A DNA stretch of 64,000 nt from Polaromonas sp. (GTDB lineage: Bacteria; Pseudomonadota; Gammaproteobacteria; Burkholderiales; Burkholderiaceae_C): the NCBI GenBank assembly GCA_013298945.1, contig JAAFJR010000001.1, positions 372,001 to 436,000 on the forward strand. Direction: 5' to 3'. The position numbers were made by a program, and so were the translations under genes. Below are positions 29,147 through 62,293 of the stretch, piece after piece. Numbering within the stretch: the stretch's first letter is position 1; every line of letters starts with the position of its first letter. The notes beneath the pieces were generated by a model, which saw only the letters and a program-made list of their open reading frames with translations, was not told the DNA's origin and did no database searches.

Positions 29147-30076
29147 TTAAGCCACAAACGCCTCAATCATCTTCGCCAGCACCAGCGGTTGGTCGTGGTG
29201 CATCATGTGGCCGGCGTCTTGCACGACTTTGATGGTGCAATCGGGCACATTTTTCAAGCGCTCGTGAAACTCTGCTAAAGTGTATTTGCCATTCCACCAG
29301 CCGCTGAGCGAGTCATCGCTTGCCTCTACCACCAACACTGGTGCGGTGATACTTTTGTAAAGCGCCAGCGCTTCAGCCACATTGTTAAGGTTAGCGTTGA
29401 TGATTTTGTGCGCAGGGTCACCCAAAATCTCCCATTTGCCCTGTGTGTTTTCAGCCGCCCAGTGGCGCGCCAACCAGTTGGCTTTGGCTTTGCCGGCCTC
29501 GTCGCGGCCTAGGCGTGGGTTGGTTTTCATCAAGCGGCGGGCCACGCCGTCGGCTTTGTCGTAAGCGGTTAAATCTAGCTCGCCACGGTGCAGTTTTTTC
29601 AGCTCATCCATCCATTGCGCATAGCGCGAGGGGGCTTTTTCTGCGGCAAAAACCGGCATGCCGAAGCCTTCTAAATTGACCAAGCGGCGCACGCGCTCAG
29701 GTCGGCTGCCGGCGTACATCATCACCACATTGCCGCCCATGCTGTGGCCGATCAAATCGACAGCTTGATTAGGCGAATAATGATCCAGCAAAAAGTCTAA
29801 ATCTGCCAAATAATCTGGGAACCAGTAGTTGTCTACGGGCGCGCCTGTGGTTTTGCCGTAGCCGCGCCAGTCTGCTGCGATGATGAGCCGGTCTGCAAAA
29901 AAAGCGTCACTCAGCATATCAACGACGAACTGGTATGAGGCTGCCACATCCATCCAGCCATGCATCAGCACCAATGGCGGCAAAGTAGAGGCAGTGTTTC
30001 CCCACACTAAAACATGGTAATTCAGCTTGCGAATCGGGATAAATTCACTTCTGGGGGCTCTTTTTACGGTGTACAT
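29147..30076 (-). CDS. Alpha/beta hydrolase
   Basis: A 309-residue alpha/beta-fold hydrolase of unknown substrate. Starting at ATG 30076 gives MYTVKRAPRSEFIPIRKLNY; an upstream in-frame start would intrude on the divergent acyl-CoA synthetase promoter. The oxyanion strand VLMHGWMDVAASYQFVVDML lies near 36-55, the nucleophile elbow GHSMGGNVVMMYAGSRP near 119 (Ser in GHSMGG), and the final His in VVQDAGHMMHHDQP near 290, completing a Ser/Asp/His triad. The closest recollection is the epoxide-hydrolase/haloperoxidase-like group. It is divergent from the acyl-CoA synthetase gene with a 74-base gap, so the two may be co-regulated. Confidence 0.85.
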   Translation of the reverse strand: MYTVKRAPRSEFIPIRKLNYHVLVWGNTASTLPPLVLMHGWMDVAASYQFVVDMLSDAFFADRLIIAADWRGYGKTTGAPVDNYWFPDYLADLDFLLDHYSPNQAVDLIGHSMGGNVVMMYAGSRPERVRRLVNLEGFGMPVFAAEKAPSRYAQWMDELKKLHRGELDLTAYDKADGVARRLMKTNPRLGRDEAGKAKANWLARHWAAENTQGKWEILGDPAHKIINANLNNVAEALALYKSITAPVLVVEASDDSLSGWWNGKYTLAEFHERLKNVPDCTIKVVQDAGHMMHHDQPLVLAKMIEAFVA

Positions 30077-30150
30077 TGGAAGTTCTGAAAAAGTATCTGC
30101 AAGATTATTTTTGTGCATTGCAGCATCATAAAGAAAATAAAGAGGCAAAC

Positions 30151-31962
30151 ATGGCTAAAAATCGAGAAATGAGTCAACTGGAAGACAGTTACGCCCAACT
30201 CCATCGTCAATTTGGCTGGCATGTCCCTGAAGATTTCAACATCGCAGATGTGTGCTGCACCCGCTGGGCTAAAAAGACGCCAAACGCGGTGGCGATTCGT
30301 GAGCATGCGATTGGAAAATCACAAGCAAAATCAAAGGCTTACACGTACTTGCAACTGCAGCAAGCAGCGAATCAACTATCTCAGAAATTGGCGCAATTGG
30401 GTGTATCTCGCGGCGACCGCGTCGCCATCGTGCTGCCGCAGCGCTTTGAAACCGCCGTCGCCTACATCGCGGTGCTGCAAATGGGGGCAGTCGCCGTGCC
30501 GCTGTCCATGTTGTTCGGCCCTGACGCACTGGAATACCGCATCAACGACGCAGACGCCGTCGTCGCTATCGTGGACGAGGTTTCAGAACCAGTTTTGCGT
30601 CAAATTCAGTCAAAATGCCCTAAATTAGCATCAATTATGGCTATAGCCGGCGTATTTTCTGCCTTAGAAGCTATTAAAAGTATAGTAAAAAACAAGTTTC
30701 ATGTGGCCACAAAAGCCGATGAAGGCGCGATTTTGATCTACACCAGCGGCACGACTGGCCCACCAAAGGGCGCGTTGATTCCGCATCGGGCGTTGATTGG
30801 CAATTTGACGGGCTTTGTTTGCAGCCAGAATTGGTTTGGTTTTGACAGCAAGACAAGTAAATCCTCTCAAGCGGTTTTCTGGAGCCCCGCAGACTGGGCT
30901 TGGACAGGCGGGCTGATGGACGCGCTCTTGCCCACGCTGTACTTTGGCCGCGAAATCATTGCTTTGAATGGCAGATTCAGCCCAGAAGCCGCCTTTGAGC
31001 TGCTGCAAACCCAGCGCGTGACCCACACCTTCCTCTTCCCCACGGCGCTCAAAGCCATGATGAAATCCTTCCCTGAGCCGAAAAAGCACTACAAATTGCG
31101 TCTACAAGCCATCATGAGCGCGGGCGAGGCCGTGGGCGACGCGGTTTACGACTACTGCCGCGATAAATTGGGCGTGGTGGTGAACGAAATGTTCGGCCAA
31201 ACCGAGATCAACTACATCGTCGGCAATTGCGCCATCAATTATCCGAGCAAAGCCAACAGCATGGGCAAGCCCTACCCAGGCCACAACGTCGCGGTGATAG
31301 ACGACGACGGCAACATTTGCCTCGACGGTGTGCCGGGCGACGTGGCGGTGAACCGCTTTGACATCCATGGCCAGCCCGACCCGATTTTCTTCCTCGGCTA
31401 CTGGAAAAACGAAGCCGCCACAGCCGCCAAGTTCACAGGCGACTGGTGCAGAACCGGCGATTTAGCCACGAGAGACGCCGACGGCTACCTCTGGTATTCT
31501 GGCCGTGCCGACGACGTTTTCAAAGCCGCCGGCTACCGCATTGGCCCCAGTGAAATCGAAAACTGCCTCGTCAAACACCCCGCCGTCGCCAACGCCGCCG
31601 TCGTGCCCAAACCCGACACCGAACGCGGCGCGGTGGTCAAGGCCTATGTGGTTTTAGCGTCTAATTATTTTGCTACTAATTCAATAGCTCCTCAGGCAAT
31701 AAATACGCCGGCTACAGCCGAAAATGGCATTAAAAATAACATCAAAAATGATAGCAAAAAGCTCGCAGCACTCATTTTGGAGCTGCAAACCCATGTGAAA
31801 AGCCTGCTCGCTCCCTATGAATACCCCAAAGAGATTGAATTTATTGATGCCCTACCCATGACGACGACCGGCAAAGTGCAGCGGCGGGTGCTGCGGCTGC
31901 AGGAGGAGCAGAGGTATAGGGAAAATGTGCAGAATAAAGCAAGCAAGACGGTAAGGGAATAG
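30151..31962 (+). CDS. AMP-dependent acyl-CoA synthetase with two element insertions
   Basis: Activates a carboxylic acid to its CoA thioester through an acyl-AMP; the acid is unknown, but the sequence most resembles the acetyl/medium-chain (ACSM-like) group. ATG 30151 follows AAGAGGCAAAC; an in-frame start 75 bases upstream would reach the divergent hydrolase start. The AMP-binding P-loop ILIYTSGTTGPPKGALIPHR is at about 193-212, EMFGQTEINYIVGNC near 346, the hinge motif WYSGRADDVFKAAGYRIGP near 449 and the C-terminal catalytic lysine in MTTTGKVQRRVLR near 572. Two element copies sit in opposite orientation: IAGVFSALEAIKSIV before the P-loop, and SIAPQAINTPATAENG in the C-terminal domain, the latter clearly lengthening a loop. 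Confidence 0.9.
   Translation: MAKNREMSQLEDSYAQLHRQFGWHVPEDFNIADVCCTRWAKKTPNAVAIREHAIGKSQAKSKAYTYLQLQQAANQLSQKLAQLGVSRGDRVAIVLPQRFETAVAYIAVLQMGAVAVPLSMLFGPDALEYRINDADAVVAIVDEVSEPVLRQIQSKCPKLASIMAIAGVFSALEAIKSIVKNKFHVATKADEGAILIYTSGTTGPPKGALIPHRALIGNLTGFVCSQNWFGFDSKTSKSSQAVFWSPADWAWTGGLMDALLPTLYFGREIIALNGRFSPEAAFELLQTQRVTHTFLFPTALKAMMKSFPEPKKHYKLRLQAIMSAGEAVGDAVYDYCRDKLGVVVNEMFGQTEINYIVGNCAINYPSKANSMGKPYPGHNVAVIDDDGNICLDGVPGDVAVNRFDIHGQPDPIFFLGYWKNEAATAAKFTGDWCRTGDLATRDADGYLWYSGRADDVFKAAGYRIGPSEIENCLVKHPAVANAAVVPKPDTERGAVVKAYVVLASNYFATNSIAPQAINTPATAENGIKNNIKNDSKKLAALILELQTHVKSLLAPYEYPKEIEFIDALPMTTTGKVQRRVLRLQEEQRYRENVQNKASKTVRE
30637..30688 (+). repeat. Dispersed element copy (acyl-CoA synthetase, sense)
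   Basis: ATGGCTATAGCCGGCGTATT followed by GCCTTAGAAGCTATTAAAAG and TATAG. The consensus TAA of the sense frame is TTA here, keeping the frame open: MAIAGVFSALEAIKSIV. Confidence 0.9.
31670..31719 (-). repeat. Dispersed element copy (acyl-CoA synthetase, antisense)
   Basis: On the minus strand: GGCTGTAGCCGGCGTATTTA, TTGCCTGAGGA and GCTATTGAATTAGTAGCAA. On the plus strand it is read as ATNSIAPQAINTPATAE in the C-terminal domain of the synthetase. Confidence 0.9.
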
Positions 31963-51642: not shown

Positions 51643-52149
51643 TCAGAGCGCGACAGCTTTGGCAATTACAACCGCTTCTTTGGGTACGTCATCATGAAAC
51701 CCGCTGCGACCAGTTTTAACAGCTTTGATTTTGTCAACGACATCATTGCCTGCCACCACTTTGCCAAACACGGCGTAGCCCCAACCGGAAGCGGATGGTG
51801 ATGTGTGGTTCAAAAAGCCATTGTCAGCCACGTTGATGAAGAATTGTGCCGTCGCAGAATGAGGGTCGCCCGTACGCGCCATGGCGACGGTGTAGTTGGC
51901 GTTTTTGACGCCGTTGTTGGCTTCATTTTCAATGGGAACTTGGGTTGATTTTTGAGTCATACCAGGCTCAAAACCACCGCCTTGCACCATGAAACCCGGA
52001 ATCACGCGGTGAAAAATAGTGTTGTTGTAATGACCACTGTTCACATAGCTCAAAAAATTAGCAGTTGATTTTGGCGCTTTAACAGCATCAAGTTCAAGCG
52101 TGATAACGCCGTAGCCAGAAATGTGAAGTTCTACTTGTGGATTGCTCAT
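51643..52149 (-). CDS. ppiB: Cytosolic cyclophilin-type peptidyl-prolyl isomerase
   Basis: A 168-residue isomerase accelerating cis-trans prolyl bonds during folding, no signal peptide. The cyclophilin fold shows [20 protein letters not shown] near 19, [20 protein letters not shown] near 42 (catalytic Arg in FHRVIPGF), [20 protein letters not shown] near 90 and [20 protein letters not shown] near 126. It lies 18 bases downstream of the exported cyclophilin and shares its architecture, suggesting an old duplication. Confidence 0.95.
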
Positions 52150-52167: not shown

Positions 52168-52878
52168 TTACTTAACAAGGGTTGCAGAGGTGATAACGAT
52201 TTGGTTTTTTGGAACATCAGTTGAGAATGGCCCGCCTGCGCCAGTAGGCGTCGCTTTAATTTTAGTCACCACATCCATGCCTTCAACCACTTTACCGAAA
52301 ACGGTGTAACCAAACAGTTGCGGCGAAGACGTTAGCTGGTTGCGTGGCACGTTTTTGTAGGTTTTGTTTTGGTATTCAAACGACGGCACTGGGTCGCCTG
52401 GTGGAATCACTGTTGGGTCTAAAAACGCGTTGTCTTTCACATTGATGAAAAATTGTGCGGTAGCAGATTGTGGGTCACCAGTTCGCGCCATGGCCAAGGT
52501 GCCAACCACGTTTTTCATACCGCCTTTGGCAAGGGCTACTTGACCTTCGTGCTCAACGGGAGCGCGTGTCTTCTTCTCGGCATATGCCGCATCAAAACCT
52601 CCGCCTTGCACCATAAAGTTGTCAATCACACGATGAAAAATCGTGCCGTCGTAGTGTTTGTCATTCACGTATTGTAAAAAATTAGCGACAGTTTTAGGTG
52701 CTTTATCAGCGTGGAGTTCAACCACAAAGTTGCCCGCCGAAGTGGTGAATTGAACTTTTGGATTTGGTTCTGATTTTGTTTGTGAAATGGCTGTAGCTGG
52801 CGTAATTATTGCCTGAATAGCTATATAAATAATAGCAAATAATTGCATTTTAAATTTCGATTCAGATCTCAATTTCAT
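52168..52878 (-). CDS. ppiA: Exported cyclophilin with element-derived signal peptide
   Basis: Periplasmic peptidyl-prolyl isomerase. Starting at ATG 52878 gives [20 protein letters not shown], a good signal: basic n-region, hydrophobic core [12 protein letters not shown] and c-region TPATA before SQTKS. The stretch [12 protein letters not shown] is encoded by a dispersed-element copy. Other in-frame starts at 52905 and 52848 are less suitable (overlap with the transpeptidase gene, or no basic n-region). The mature cyclophilin domain shows [40 protein letters not shown] and [20 protein letters not shown]. An insertion [20 protein letters not shown] near 155 distinguishes it from the cytosolic paralogue. 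Confidence 0.88.
52787..52838 (+). repeat. Dispersed element copy (in ppiA signal peptide)
   Basis: ATGGCTGTAGCTGGCGTAAT, TATTGCCTGAATA and GCTATATAAATAATAGCAA. It is antisense to ppiA and read as [15 protein letters not shown], i.e. it makes the core and cleavage region of the signal peptide. Confidence 0.9.
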
Positions 52879-52888
52879 TTCTGTCATT

Positions 52889-54163
52889 TTAAATAACACC
52901 TTCAAAAAATATTTTCCAAACTTTATTTTCTCGTGTCCAGTATTGCCGCTTGGTCACGCCGGTACGCTTACCAACAATCACTTCGTCAAAAGTCACCACC
53001 ATGGTATCGCTTTGGTCTACCCAGCGCATCATGCTGATATTGCTCAGCGCAATATCTTGCCCTTTGAGCTTAGCGAGTTCATTGCTTGCAATGTCTGTCC
53101 ATTGTGTGATATTTTTACCGTAATTAGAAAAATCCGCTGTGTAAAACGACAAAAATTTAGGCAAATCGGATTGCACTTTGGCTTGCCGCCAGGCCATCAA
53201 GCTGTTGTTGAAGCTGGATTTTTCAAGCTCCAAATTTGAATTTGTAACCCAATTCAAACGATCCGCGATGACGACTGGTGTGGTTCTTGCACTGACACTT
53301 TTTAAAATGTGGTTGAGGTCGGGATTTGCTAAAACCACACAACCGTCAGAGGCTTTGGGCGCACGAGAGAATTGTTCCGAAGGCGTGCCGTGTAACCAAA
53401 TGCCACCGCCAGTTTTTCCGCGTTTCAGATCTAGCGGATTCGGGTAATTGATAGGCAAAGCACCAACGCCATAAAAGTCTACCAACGATGTAGGATTCAA
53501 GCTGCCAGTAATGTAGTAAACGCCAAGCGGCGTTCGCTGGTCGCCCTCTAGCGTTTTCTCAATCCCTAATTTCCCGATAGAGATATAGAAATCAGAGATG
53601 AGTTTTACACCCTGATTGGTATTCTCAAAAAGGTATAAGCGAGAGCGAGACGCATCAACGGCGATAGCATGCTTGTTACGATCCGAGAGCGCTAAAAATT
53701 GAGAAGGAAATGTGTTGGACGGAGGTCGTTCCCGTAGTGCTTTAAGACGTTGCAATGACTCTTCACGCAATTCATTCAGAGCAGCAGTGTTTGAATTGGC
53801 AGATGCTCCTAGCGGCATTGATTTCGGCAAATCGCCAAGGCCATTCACAGGACGCACGAAGCTGCTGAGCAAATCGCCATGTACCAGTTGTGCCAGCTGG
53901 AAATTGGGTTGTACTTTTAGCAGTTGCTCTGATTCCGCCAGCGCTTGCCTATTTTGCCCTTTGCCTATCAACTGGTAAATTTTAAGTAGCTTAGCCTCGG
54001 CTTGAGAATCTATCCTGCGTTGTGCAATATTTTTGTTTTTACCACTGTTAAGGATAGTTGCTTTGTTGCTTTGCGCCGCTACTATCTGCGTGAAAAGCAC
54101 ACTGCTACACACAAGCAATGTGCCTACAACAGTCGTCGAGAAAAAATTTCGGAAACAGTTCAT
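52889..54163 (-). CDS. Exported L,D-transpeptidase (YkuD) with NTF2-like tail
   Basis: Predicted periplasmic peptidoglycan L,D-transpeptidase. ATG 54163 gives the signal [20 protein letters not shown] followed by a cleavage region near TQIVAAQ; an in-frame TTG lies 39 bases upstream. A helical segment (about 45-120) precedes the YkuD domain (about 150-290), whose active site is [20 protein letters not shown] near 255, with catalytic Cys and His. The C-terminal about 105 residues ([20 protein letters not shown] to the end) form an NTF2-like domain that resembles the end of the neighbouring TPR protein. It lies 43 bases downstream of that gene, so cotranscription is likely. Confidence 0.88.
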
Positions 54164-54206
54164 CAATCGGTTCAAAGGAACCTCCGCGCAAGCCGATCGC
54201 AAAAAT

Positions 54207-62009: not shown

Positions 62010-62045
62010 AAAGCTCTGTAAACCTTGGTTTACAGAGCTTTTTTT
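62010..62045 (+). terminator. Terminator of tRNA-Ser
   Basis: AAAGCTCTGTAAACC pairs with GGTTTACAGAGCTTT around a two-base loop (TT), followed by T5. It separates the tRNA transcript from the TPP-riboswitch unit. Confidence 0.93.
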
Positions 62046-62060
62046 ATGGAAAAAAGTCTT

Positions 62061-62103
62061 TAGTCAACGTATTTATTGCCTATGATGCTATCATTTTTGA
62101 TAT
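62061..62103 (+). repeat. Dispersed element copy (intergenic, degenerate)
   Basis: TAGTCAACGTATTTATTGCC followed by GATGCTATCATTTTTGATA; two changes in the GCCGGC block and a changed palindrome. It sits between the tRNA-Ser terminator and the TPP riboswitch. Confidence 0.75.
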
Positions 62104-62128
62104 TTTATTGAATAGGCTACAATTGAGA

Positions 62129-62222
62129 TTCACCAGGGGTGTCTTTGCATTGAAAAATATGTGCGGACTGAGAAATACCCTGTTTACCTGATCTGGGTCA
62201 TGCCAGCGTAGGAAGCGTGAGA
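62129..62222 (+). ncRNA. TPP riboswitch (THI element)
   Basis: The thiamine pyrophosphate aptamer is clear: CCAGGGGTGTC on the 5' side, the pyrimidine-sensor helix with GGACTGAGAAATACCC, and the pyrophosphate-sensor segment ACCTGATCTGGGTCATGCCA followed by GCGTAGGAAG, closed by a TCAC/GTGA P1 stem. It precedes thiB by about 72 bases. A pyrimidine run with TTCCTT (62230-62235) could pair with AAGGAA (62285-62290) at the thiB ribosome-binding site, favouring translational control, but this pairing is inference. Confidence 0.96.
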
Positions 62223-62293
62223 CTGAAAGTTCCTTCTGTTCTTTCTTTTTATGCGTCCTATTGTGGCGTTTTAGAAGAGTACAAAAGGAAATC

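Follow-up and report, generated by a model that had tools for sequence, protein, structure and literature searches.

The question raised by this locus is where the predicted export signal of a cyclophilin came from, its core coinciding with a copy of a short dispersed repeat. The window, that is, the whole stretch of 64,000 nucleotides that was analysed, covers bases 372001-436000 of contig C1 (GC 49.7%) of a 3.07-Mb genome, G000, and carries on its minus strand a 239-residue cyclophilin-type peptidyl-prolyl isomerase that is predicted to be exported (52168..52887; Pfam PF00160, 2.9e-45; reading frame). The best NCBIfam match of this protein is PRK10903.1, peptidylprolyl isomerase A, and since the score of 182.8 bits is under the 308-bit equivalog cut-off, we call it PpiA-like only, with ppiA as shorthand for its gene. 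Judged by the cyclophilin, the nearest named relatives are mostly Comamonadaceae, e.g. Rhodoferax, Polaromonas and Limnohabitans. The start of ppiA is most likely the ATG at 52887, one base past the TAA that ends an L,D-transpeptidase-like gene lying upstream (52889..54202, minus strand; PF03734 YkuD, 1.1e-18). Residues 1-33 (52789..52887, minus strand) make up the predicted signal peptide (SP), with cleavage between ATA and IS or, alternatively, between AIS and QT, according to a rule-based call and the (-3,-1) rule; the leader displays a positive n-region, a hydrophobic h-region and small residues at -3/-1, the features of a Sec type I SP as scored with a home-made rule rather than SignalP. 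Next to ppiA lies a PpiB-like cyclophilin (51643..52149, minus strand; PF00160, 4.4e-44), which the initial annotation had described as devoid of an export leader, as its sequence confirms.

In silico comparison revealed that the ppiA leader and the repeat are homologous at the DNA level. A copy of the ~57-bp repeat (family D1) lies at 52786..52840 on the minus strand, in gene-sense orientation and in frame within the cyclophilin gene, and was recognized by nhmmer at 43.0 bits (E 5.1e-11 in a 1.636-Mb sample), being identical to the repeat consensus at 44 of 54 positions; it codes for the hydrophobic core and cleavage region of the predicted SP, just as the initial annotation had proposed. One might argue that hydrophobic leader codons came to resemble the repeat by chance, given that triplets of this kind abound in DNA that codes for SPs. 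We regard such convergence as scarcely credible and, on the strength of a recoding test, rule it out: among 1000 random synonymous recodings of the leader none reached 43.0 bits (mean 2.8, best 27.2), the three codon positions match about equally well (15/18, 15/18 and 14/18), and a scan of the reversed sequence gave no match vs. 366 in the real one. Because the recodings fall short and the match is about equally good at third codon positions, the likeness is one of DNA homology and not of protein convergence.

The gene-sense consensus of the repeat, derived from 30 copies and ~57 bp in length, reads TTTGCTATATTTTTAATAGCTGCTTAGGCAATAAATACGCCGGCTACAGCCATATTTA. Family D1 occupies 14 places in the window, with further ones inverted, and a degenerate copy at 62038-62094 was seen just upstream of a TPP riboswitch aptamer (62125-62232; Rfam RF00059, 60.5 bits). 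With up to 3 mismatches allowed, a 31-base core of the repeat has 371 matches in G000 and 290, 52 and 107 in the three other genomes of the genus, whereas 56 further genomes from the family and order yielded none; the same core read backwards had no match in any genome. An HMM scan of the 1.636-Mb sample (53% of the genome) yielded 366 copies, 186 of them intergenic, 142 wholly within called genes and 38 partial, with genes called by a simple codon-usage script rather than a standard gene finder. The many similar copies, dispersed over unrelated contexts, give the repeat a MITE-like character. The consensus harbors no long stable hairpin, and since its fold does not surpass that of shuffled sequence (z -0.25), a conserved RNA structure was rejected. 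Weakly similar short hairpin-like repeats (GCTAT..ATAGCTGCT), scoring 21.5 bits at most, were noticed in the outgroup loci L095 (4249-4306), L074 (3844-3886) and L117 (524-559); these could possibly represent a wider, Comamonadaceae-wide family from which the element was amplified, which we offer as a lead only.

The relatives carrying and lacking the element bear directly on the origin of the leader. In ppiA of G001 the element occupies the corresponding position, in the same frame (47.7 bits, LAIILIAAQALITPAISFSQ), making G000 and G001 the only two genomes with a copy of the element in ppiA, whereas ppiA of G002 is without the element and starts with a different leader that resembles an ordinary SP; G003, which is 86% complete, gave no match to the gene. 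Since the stop-start junction between the transpeptidase-like gene and ppiA is closely alike in G000, G001 and G002, we consider these genes to be the same locus. Beyond G001, the 110 loci from the ppiA search (L001-L030 and L061-L140) contain nothing near ppiA above 12.9 bits, and the match at that score is antisense; among named ppiA orthologs, the best element matches are this antisense one in L063 and a sense match of 6.1 bits in L065. Scoring 47 of the 80 named ppiA loci with the SP rule at a hydrophobicity threshold of 1.7 (L108-L140, mostly split or weaker matches, being left out, as was the G022 gene, which is split over contig ends) gave 45 with an SP. The comparison of relatives that the initial annotation had called for thus showed SP sequences that differ with vs. 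without the element, and not the same SP in genomes lacking it, which would have spoken against its proposal.

That proposal left open whether the copy had created or replaced the SP, and only the latter agrees with these data. The thought that the copy conferred export on a formerly cytosolic cyclophilin has as its sole support the PpiB-like neighbor without an SP; in view of the SP-like leader in G002 and the SP-bearing outgroup orthologs (45/47), parsimony on the genomes compared refutes de novo creation, and we attach next to no likelihood to it. Because ordinary-looking SPs occur in G002 and in the outgroup orthologs examined, without the element, the element would have taken over an existing SP rather than created export, with parsimony giving the direction of change. 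Ahead of the conserved VQF there are 40 residues in G001, 44 in G000 and 42 in G002, compared to a median of 34.5 (range 29-58) in the 28 outgroup orthologs whose leaders were printed in full; as all three genomes exceed this median, the length of the ppiA leader changed within the genus whether or not the element was present.

As to why a repeat should serve as a leader, the initial annotation surmised that its frame is pre-adapted as a signal sequence. This holds in part. The consensus in the ppiA frame, FAIFLIAA*AINTPATAIF, is interrupted by a TAG stop at one variable codon, but 51 of the 167 intergenic copies that score at least 27 bits keep it open throughout, so that roughly one copy in three is pre-adapted without further change. 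Frame usage within genes, with frames matched by their peptides, does not follow this openness: the sense FAIFLIAAxAINTPATA frame accounts for 54 of the 142 in-gene copies, and the antisense AVAGVFIAxxAIKNIA frame for 63 while open in 29/167 intergenic copies; the sense CYIF.. and antisense KYGCSRR.. frames, whose peptides contain Cys, are open in 57/167 and 93/167, respectively, and are used by only 8 and 5 in-gene copies. Since usage does not track openness, it is largely the peptide that sets which frame survives in genes. Besides leaders, in-gene copies lie in proteins that we take, from their sequences, to resemble LpxB, MetG, TilS, DapE, MiaA, HscA, TrmB and others. One window gene, presumably for an AMP-binding-enzyme-like protein (30043-31959), comprises two in-frame copies in opposite orientations, an antisense-frame copy at 30633..30690 (minus strand, 53.2 bits) and a sense-frame copy at 31667..31721 (plus strand, 50.1 bits), the second being in a stretch that exceeds its G002 and G005 counterparts by 29 and 17 residues, respectively.

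The recruitment seen in ppiA recurs in other predicted SPs. One home-made SP rule with a hydrophobicity threshold of 1.9 was run over the full set of 1378 called genes encoding 100 or more residues; it was positive for 219 of them, SPs making up 1.13% of residues. In this 53% of the genome, sense-frame copies were found in SPs in 12 of 54 cases vs. 0.61 expected (p 9e-13), and antisense-frame copies in 4 of 63 vs. 0.71 expected (p 0.006), with one more in another antisense frame. Because the element itself helps a leader to satisfy the rule, a stricter count was made of the six among these 12 that have element-free SP-like leaders in outgroup orthologs (PpiA, judged by rule, and LolA, MlaA, SCO1, MltB and the M14 peptidase, judged by eye), and the excess persisted (p 3e-5); the polysaccharide deacetylase is a seventh such carrier, outside that count. 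Scores are as low as 22-24 bits in three of the 12 sense-frame leaders. The recoding test was extended to another 17 leaders from the sample (12 sense, 5 antisense), with 300 synonymous recodings apiece, and in no case was the real score reached.

Together with five identified by eye (the copper-binding protein, missed by the rule, and, from beyond the sample, DsbD, LolB, SIMPL and the L183 protein), the 12 rule-called leaders bring the predicted sense-frame leaders with the element to 17. By Pfam the carriers belong to the LolA, MlaA, SCO1, SLT_2, Peptidase_M14, DUF547, Peripla_BP_6, Polysacc_deac_1, MucB_RseB and copper-binding families, and further to DsbD, LolB, SIMPL, TctC (twice), TonB plug and SLT, families that are exported as a rule; apart from the carrier C1:627325, which was left out, the L183 protein, another of 574 residues and a third that resembles a lipoprotein and has a CxxCH motif had no Pfam match. 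In LolB (L177, 2019-2076) the lipobox LIAGC lies inside the element copy, with its cysteine at the variable codon of the element; LolB of G005 and G015 has the same LIAGC without the element. The antisense frame likewise forms predicted SP cores, at G000:C1:290680 (RseB), C1:535663 and C10:290087, the RseB element being common to G001, G002 and G003. For 14 carriers, the element reached at least 17 bits in 28 of 36 orthologs of G001-G003 vs. none of 24 orthologs of the outgroups G005 and G015, where the best was 10.0 bits; this count left out L294, L295, L296 and a G015 match to the L183 protein, for which there was no G015 locus. The orthologs below 17 bits are ppiA, SCO1, copper-binding and SIMPL in G002, MlaA (11.4) and SIMPL (9.5) in G001, and MlaA (3.2) and DUF547 (10.1) in G003.

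Taken as a comparison of sequences, these data make it highly probable that the repeat landed in the ppiA leader and took over the core of an existing SP, and that the same occurred repeatedly in other leaders. We postulate that a short dispersed repeat was amplified in one Comamonadaceae genus and, in the ancestor shared by G000 and G001, came to lie in frame within the 5' end of ppiA, the gene of a cyclophilin that probably already had a Sec-type SP. With CAG at the variable codon in place of the consensus TAG stop, the FAIxxIAxQAIxTPATA frame of the repeat would supply a hydrophobic run and, after it, an AxA-type site (PATA), so that the repeat may have assumed the roles of the h- and c-regions while the old core was lost and export presumably continued. 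Similar events would account for at least 17 predicted sense-frame leaders, and a few antisense ones, with a repeat-derived core. In-frame landings would survive selection more often in SPs than elsewhere in genes, likely because SPs tolerate many hydrophobic stretches and the frame of the repeat is near a working one; it is long known that hydrophobic sequences of considerable variety can function as SPs, as Kaiser and others are said to have found in 1987.

How much of this survival reflects fit is where a rival has to be weighed, namely that the SP copies are tolerated passengers only, with SPs, being degenerate, counting among the few parts of genes that let a hydrophobic in-frame stretch survive, and the element having no special suitability. 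We hold this to be quite possible, if a little short of probable: the antisense frame is also enriched in SPs (the 4/63 above) and many copies lie in other parts of conserved proteins, but the sense frame is more enriched than all other frames combined (12/54 vs. 5/88, Fisher p 0.006), a difference that weakens to 9/43 vs. 5/65 (p 0.076) once copies below 27 bits are dropped. Our preferred account of a takeover of existing SP cores would combine the two, tolerance by the leader and fit of the frame.

How the repeat arrived at these sites bears on whether it inserted or overwrote. It could have spread not by insertion but by templated replacement of short patches where the target is partly similar, SP coding DNA being a hot spot through resemblance, which we view as a tentative alternative with less than an even prospect. 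Consistent with replacement are: 1) the similar lengths of the ppiA leader with (44, 40) and without (42) the element; 2) the gap-free alignment of the LpxB-like protein with G002, G005 and G015; 3) a net change of 0 in the HscA-like protein vs. G015 (the G005 HscA being without a locus) and of +2, -4 and -9 in the MTA-nucleosidase-like one; 4) the LolB lipobox LIAGC, present in outgroups and overlapping the element; and 5) the weak matches of the outgroup leaders PDA and G005 LolB, at 10.0 and 9.1 bits. In contrast, the DapE-like protein (+16 to +18 residues) and the intergenic site G000:C11:77156-77213 (net 45 bp) resemble insertions, and vs. the outgroups TilS (+13/+17), MiaA (+13/+13), MetG (+9/+10), SpoU (+6 to +8) and TrmB (+7/+18) are all longer; moreover, loops change length fast, and an insertion after which the redundant core was lost would lead to the same end state. 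In the LpxB-like gene (G000:C1:589351), the element segment shares residues with G002, G005 and G015, suiting replacement better than insertion. On the whole, the LpxB-, HscA- and MTA-nucleosidase-like cases resemble swaps of equal length, and other sites fall between these and the insertion-like ones.

Comparing G000 with G003, 33 of 45 mapped G000 copies were present in G003 and 12 absent, and 31 of 32 mapped G003 copies were present in G000. Nine of the 12 G000-only sites were viewed and proved to be a mixture of insertions or losses with shared copies that had decayed, and a clear insertion footprint from presence and absence was discarded. As to short-patch double illegitimate recombination, the phrase is absent from the papers listed by one literature search. 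Carried further, the repeat would be a portable SP cassette, pasted over existing leader cores by short templated replacement, with the leaders of envelope proteins sharing one selfish origin. This extension, which we deem improbable, concerns LolA, LolB, MlaA, DsbD, RseB, PpiA, SCO1 and MltB, a notable share of the envelope proteins of the genus, and, if true, might possibly imply a shared export property for the carrier proteins.

Incorporation of a repeat into a predicted SP has a precedent. As far as the available text of Delihas (2007; PMC2759123) goes, the 168-bp RU-2 (YPAL) repeat of Yersinia forms part of the predicted SP of YPO1552, homologs of which in other genera have predicted SPs unrelated to RU-2. 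Our repeat is similar in being a small dispersed repeat in a predicted SP, with homologs bearing unrelated predicted SPs; it differs from RU-2, for which that text gives one main case plus the weaker YPO2495, in another lineage, in being ~57 bp long and in reaching 17 predicted leaders, many of them in known envelope families, and in the availability here of congeners carrying vs. lacking the element and of an enrichment test. The Rickettsia palindromic elements (RPE; Ogata 2000, 2002) are, according to the portions of PMC10969869 and PMC2229807 available, ~105-150 bp long with predicted long stem-loops, and lie both in frame inside conserved genes and in intergenic DNA. The present repeat is likewise dispersed, coding and in frame inside conserved genes; its length of ~57 bp, weak fold, enrichment in SPs and occurrence in a Comamonadaceae genus set it apart from the RPE as defined in those portions. 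Coxiella QMITEs (PMC5896051) and the enterobacterial RU-1 (PMC2759123) are, in the accessible parts of these papers, short non-autonomous repeats that are fused in frame to genes. The term signal peptide is absent from the main text on QMITEs, in contrast to the SP enrichment seen here, and most of the RU-1f fusions described concern small putative membrane proteins, a single one having a predicted SP. A literature search by title and start of abstract, with subscription journals mostly outside its scope, found no account of this repeat or of recurrent recruitment into SPs. What is new is the element itself, how many leaders carry it, the contrast both within the genus and with outgroups, and the enrichment; the idea of an SP made in part from a repeat is known from RU-2.

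SPs are quick to evolve, and where their sequence came from can seldom be traced. Because a genus-specific repeat marks the segment that was replaced, SP turnover can here be followed gene by gene. The findings also add the Comamonadaceae to the groups with in-frame coding repeats like those of Rickettsia, and, as far as genome comparison can speak, suggest that selfish DNA has repeatedly been taken into protein targeting in this genus, including the leaders of proteins that assemble the envelope.
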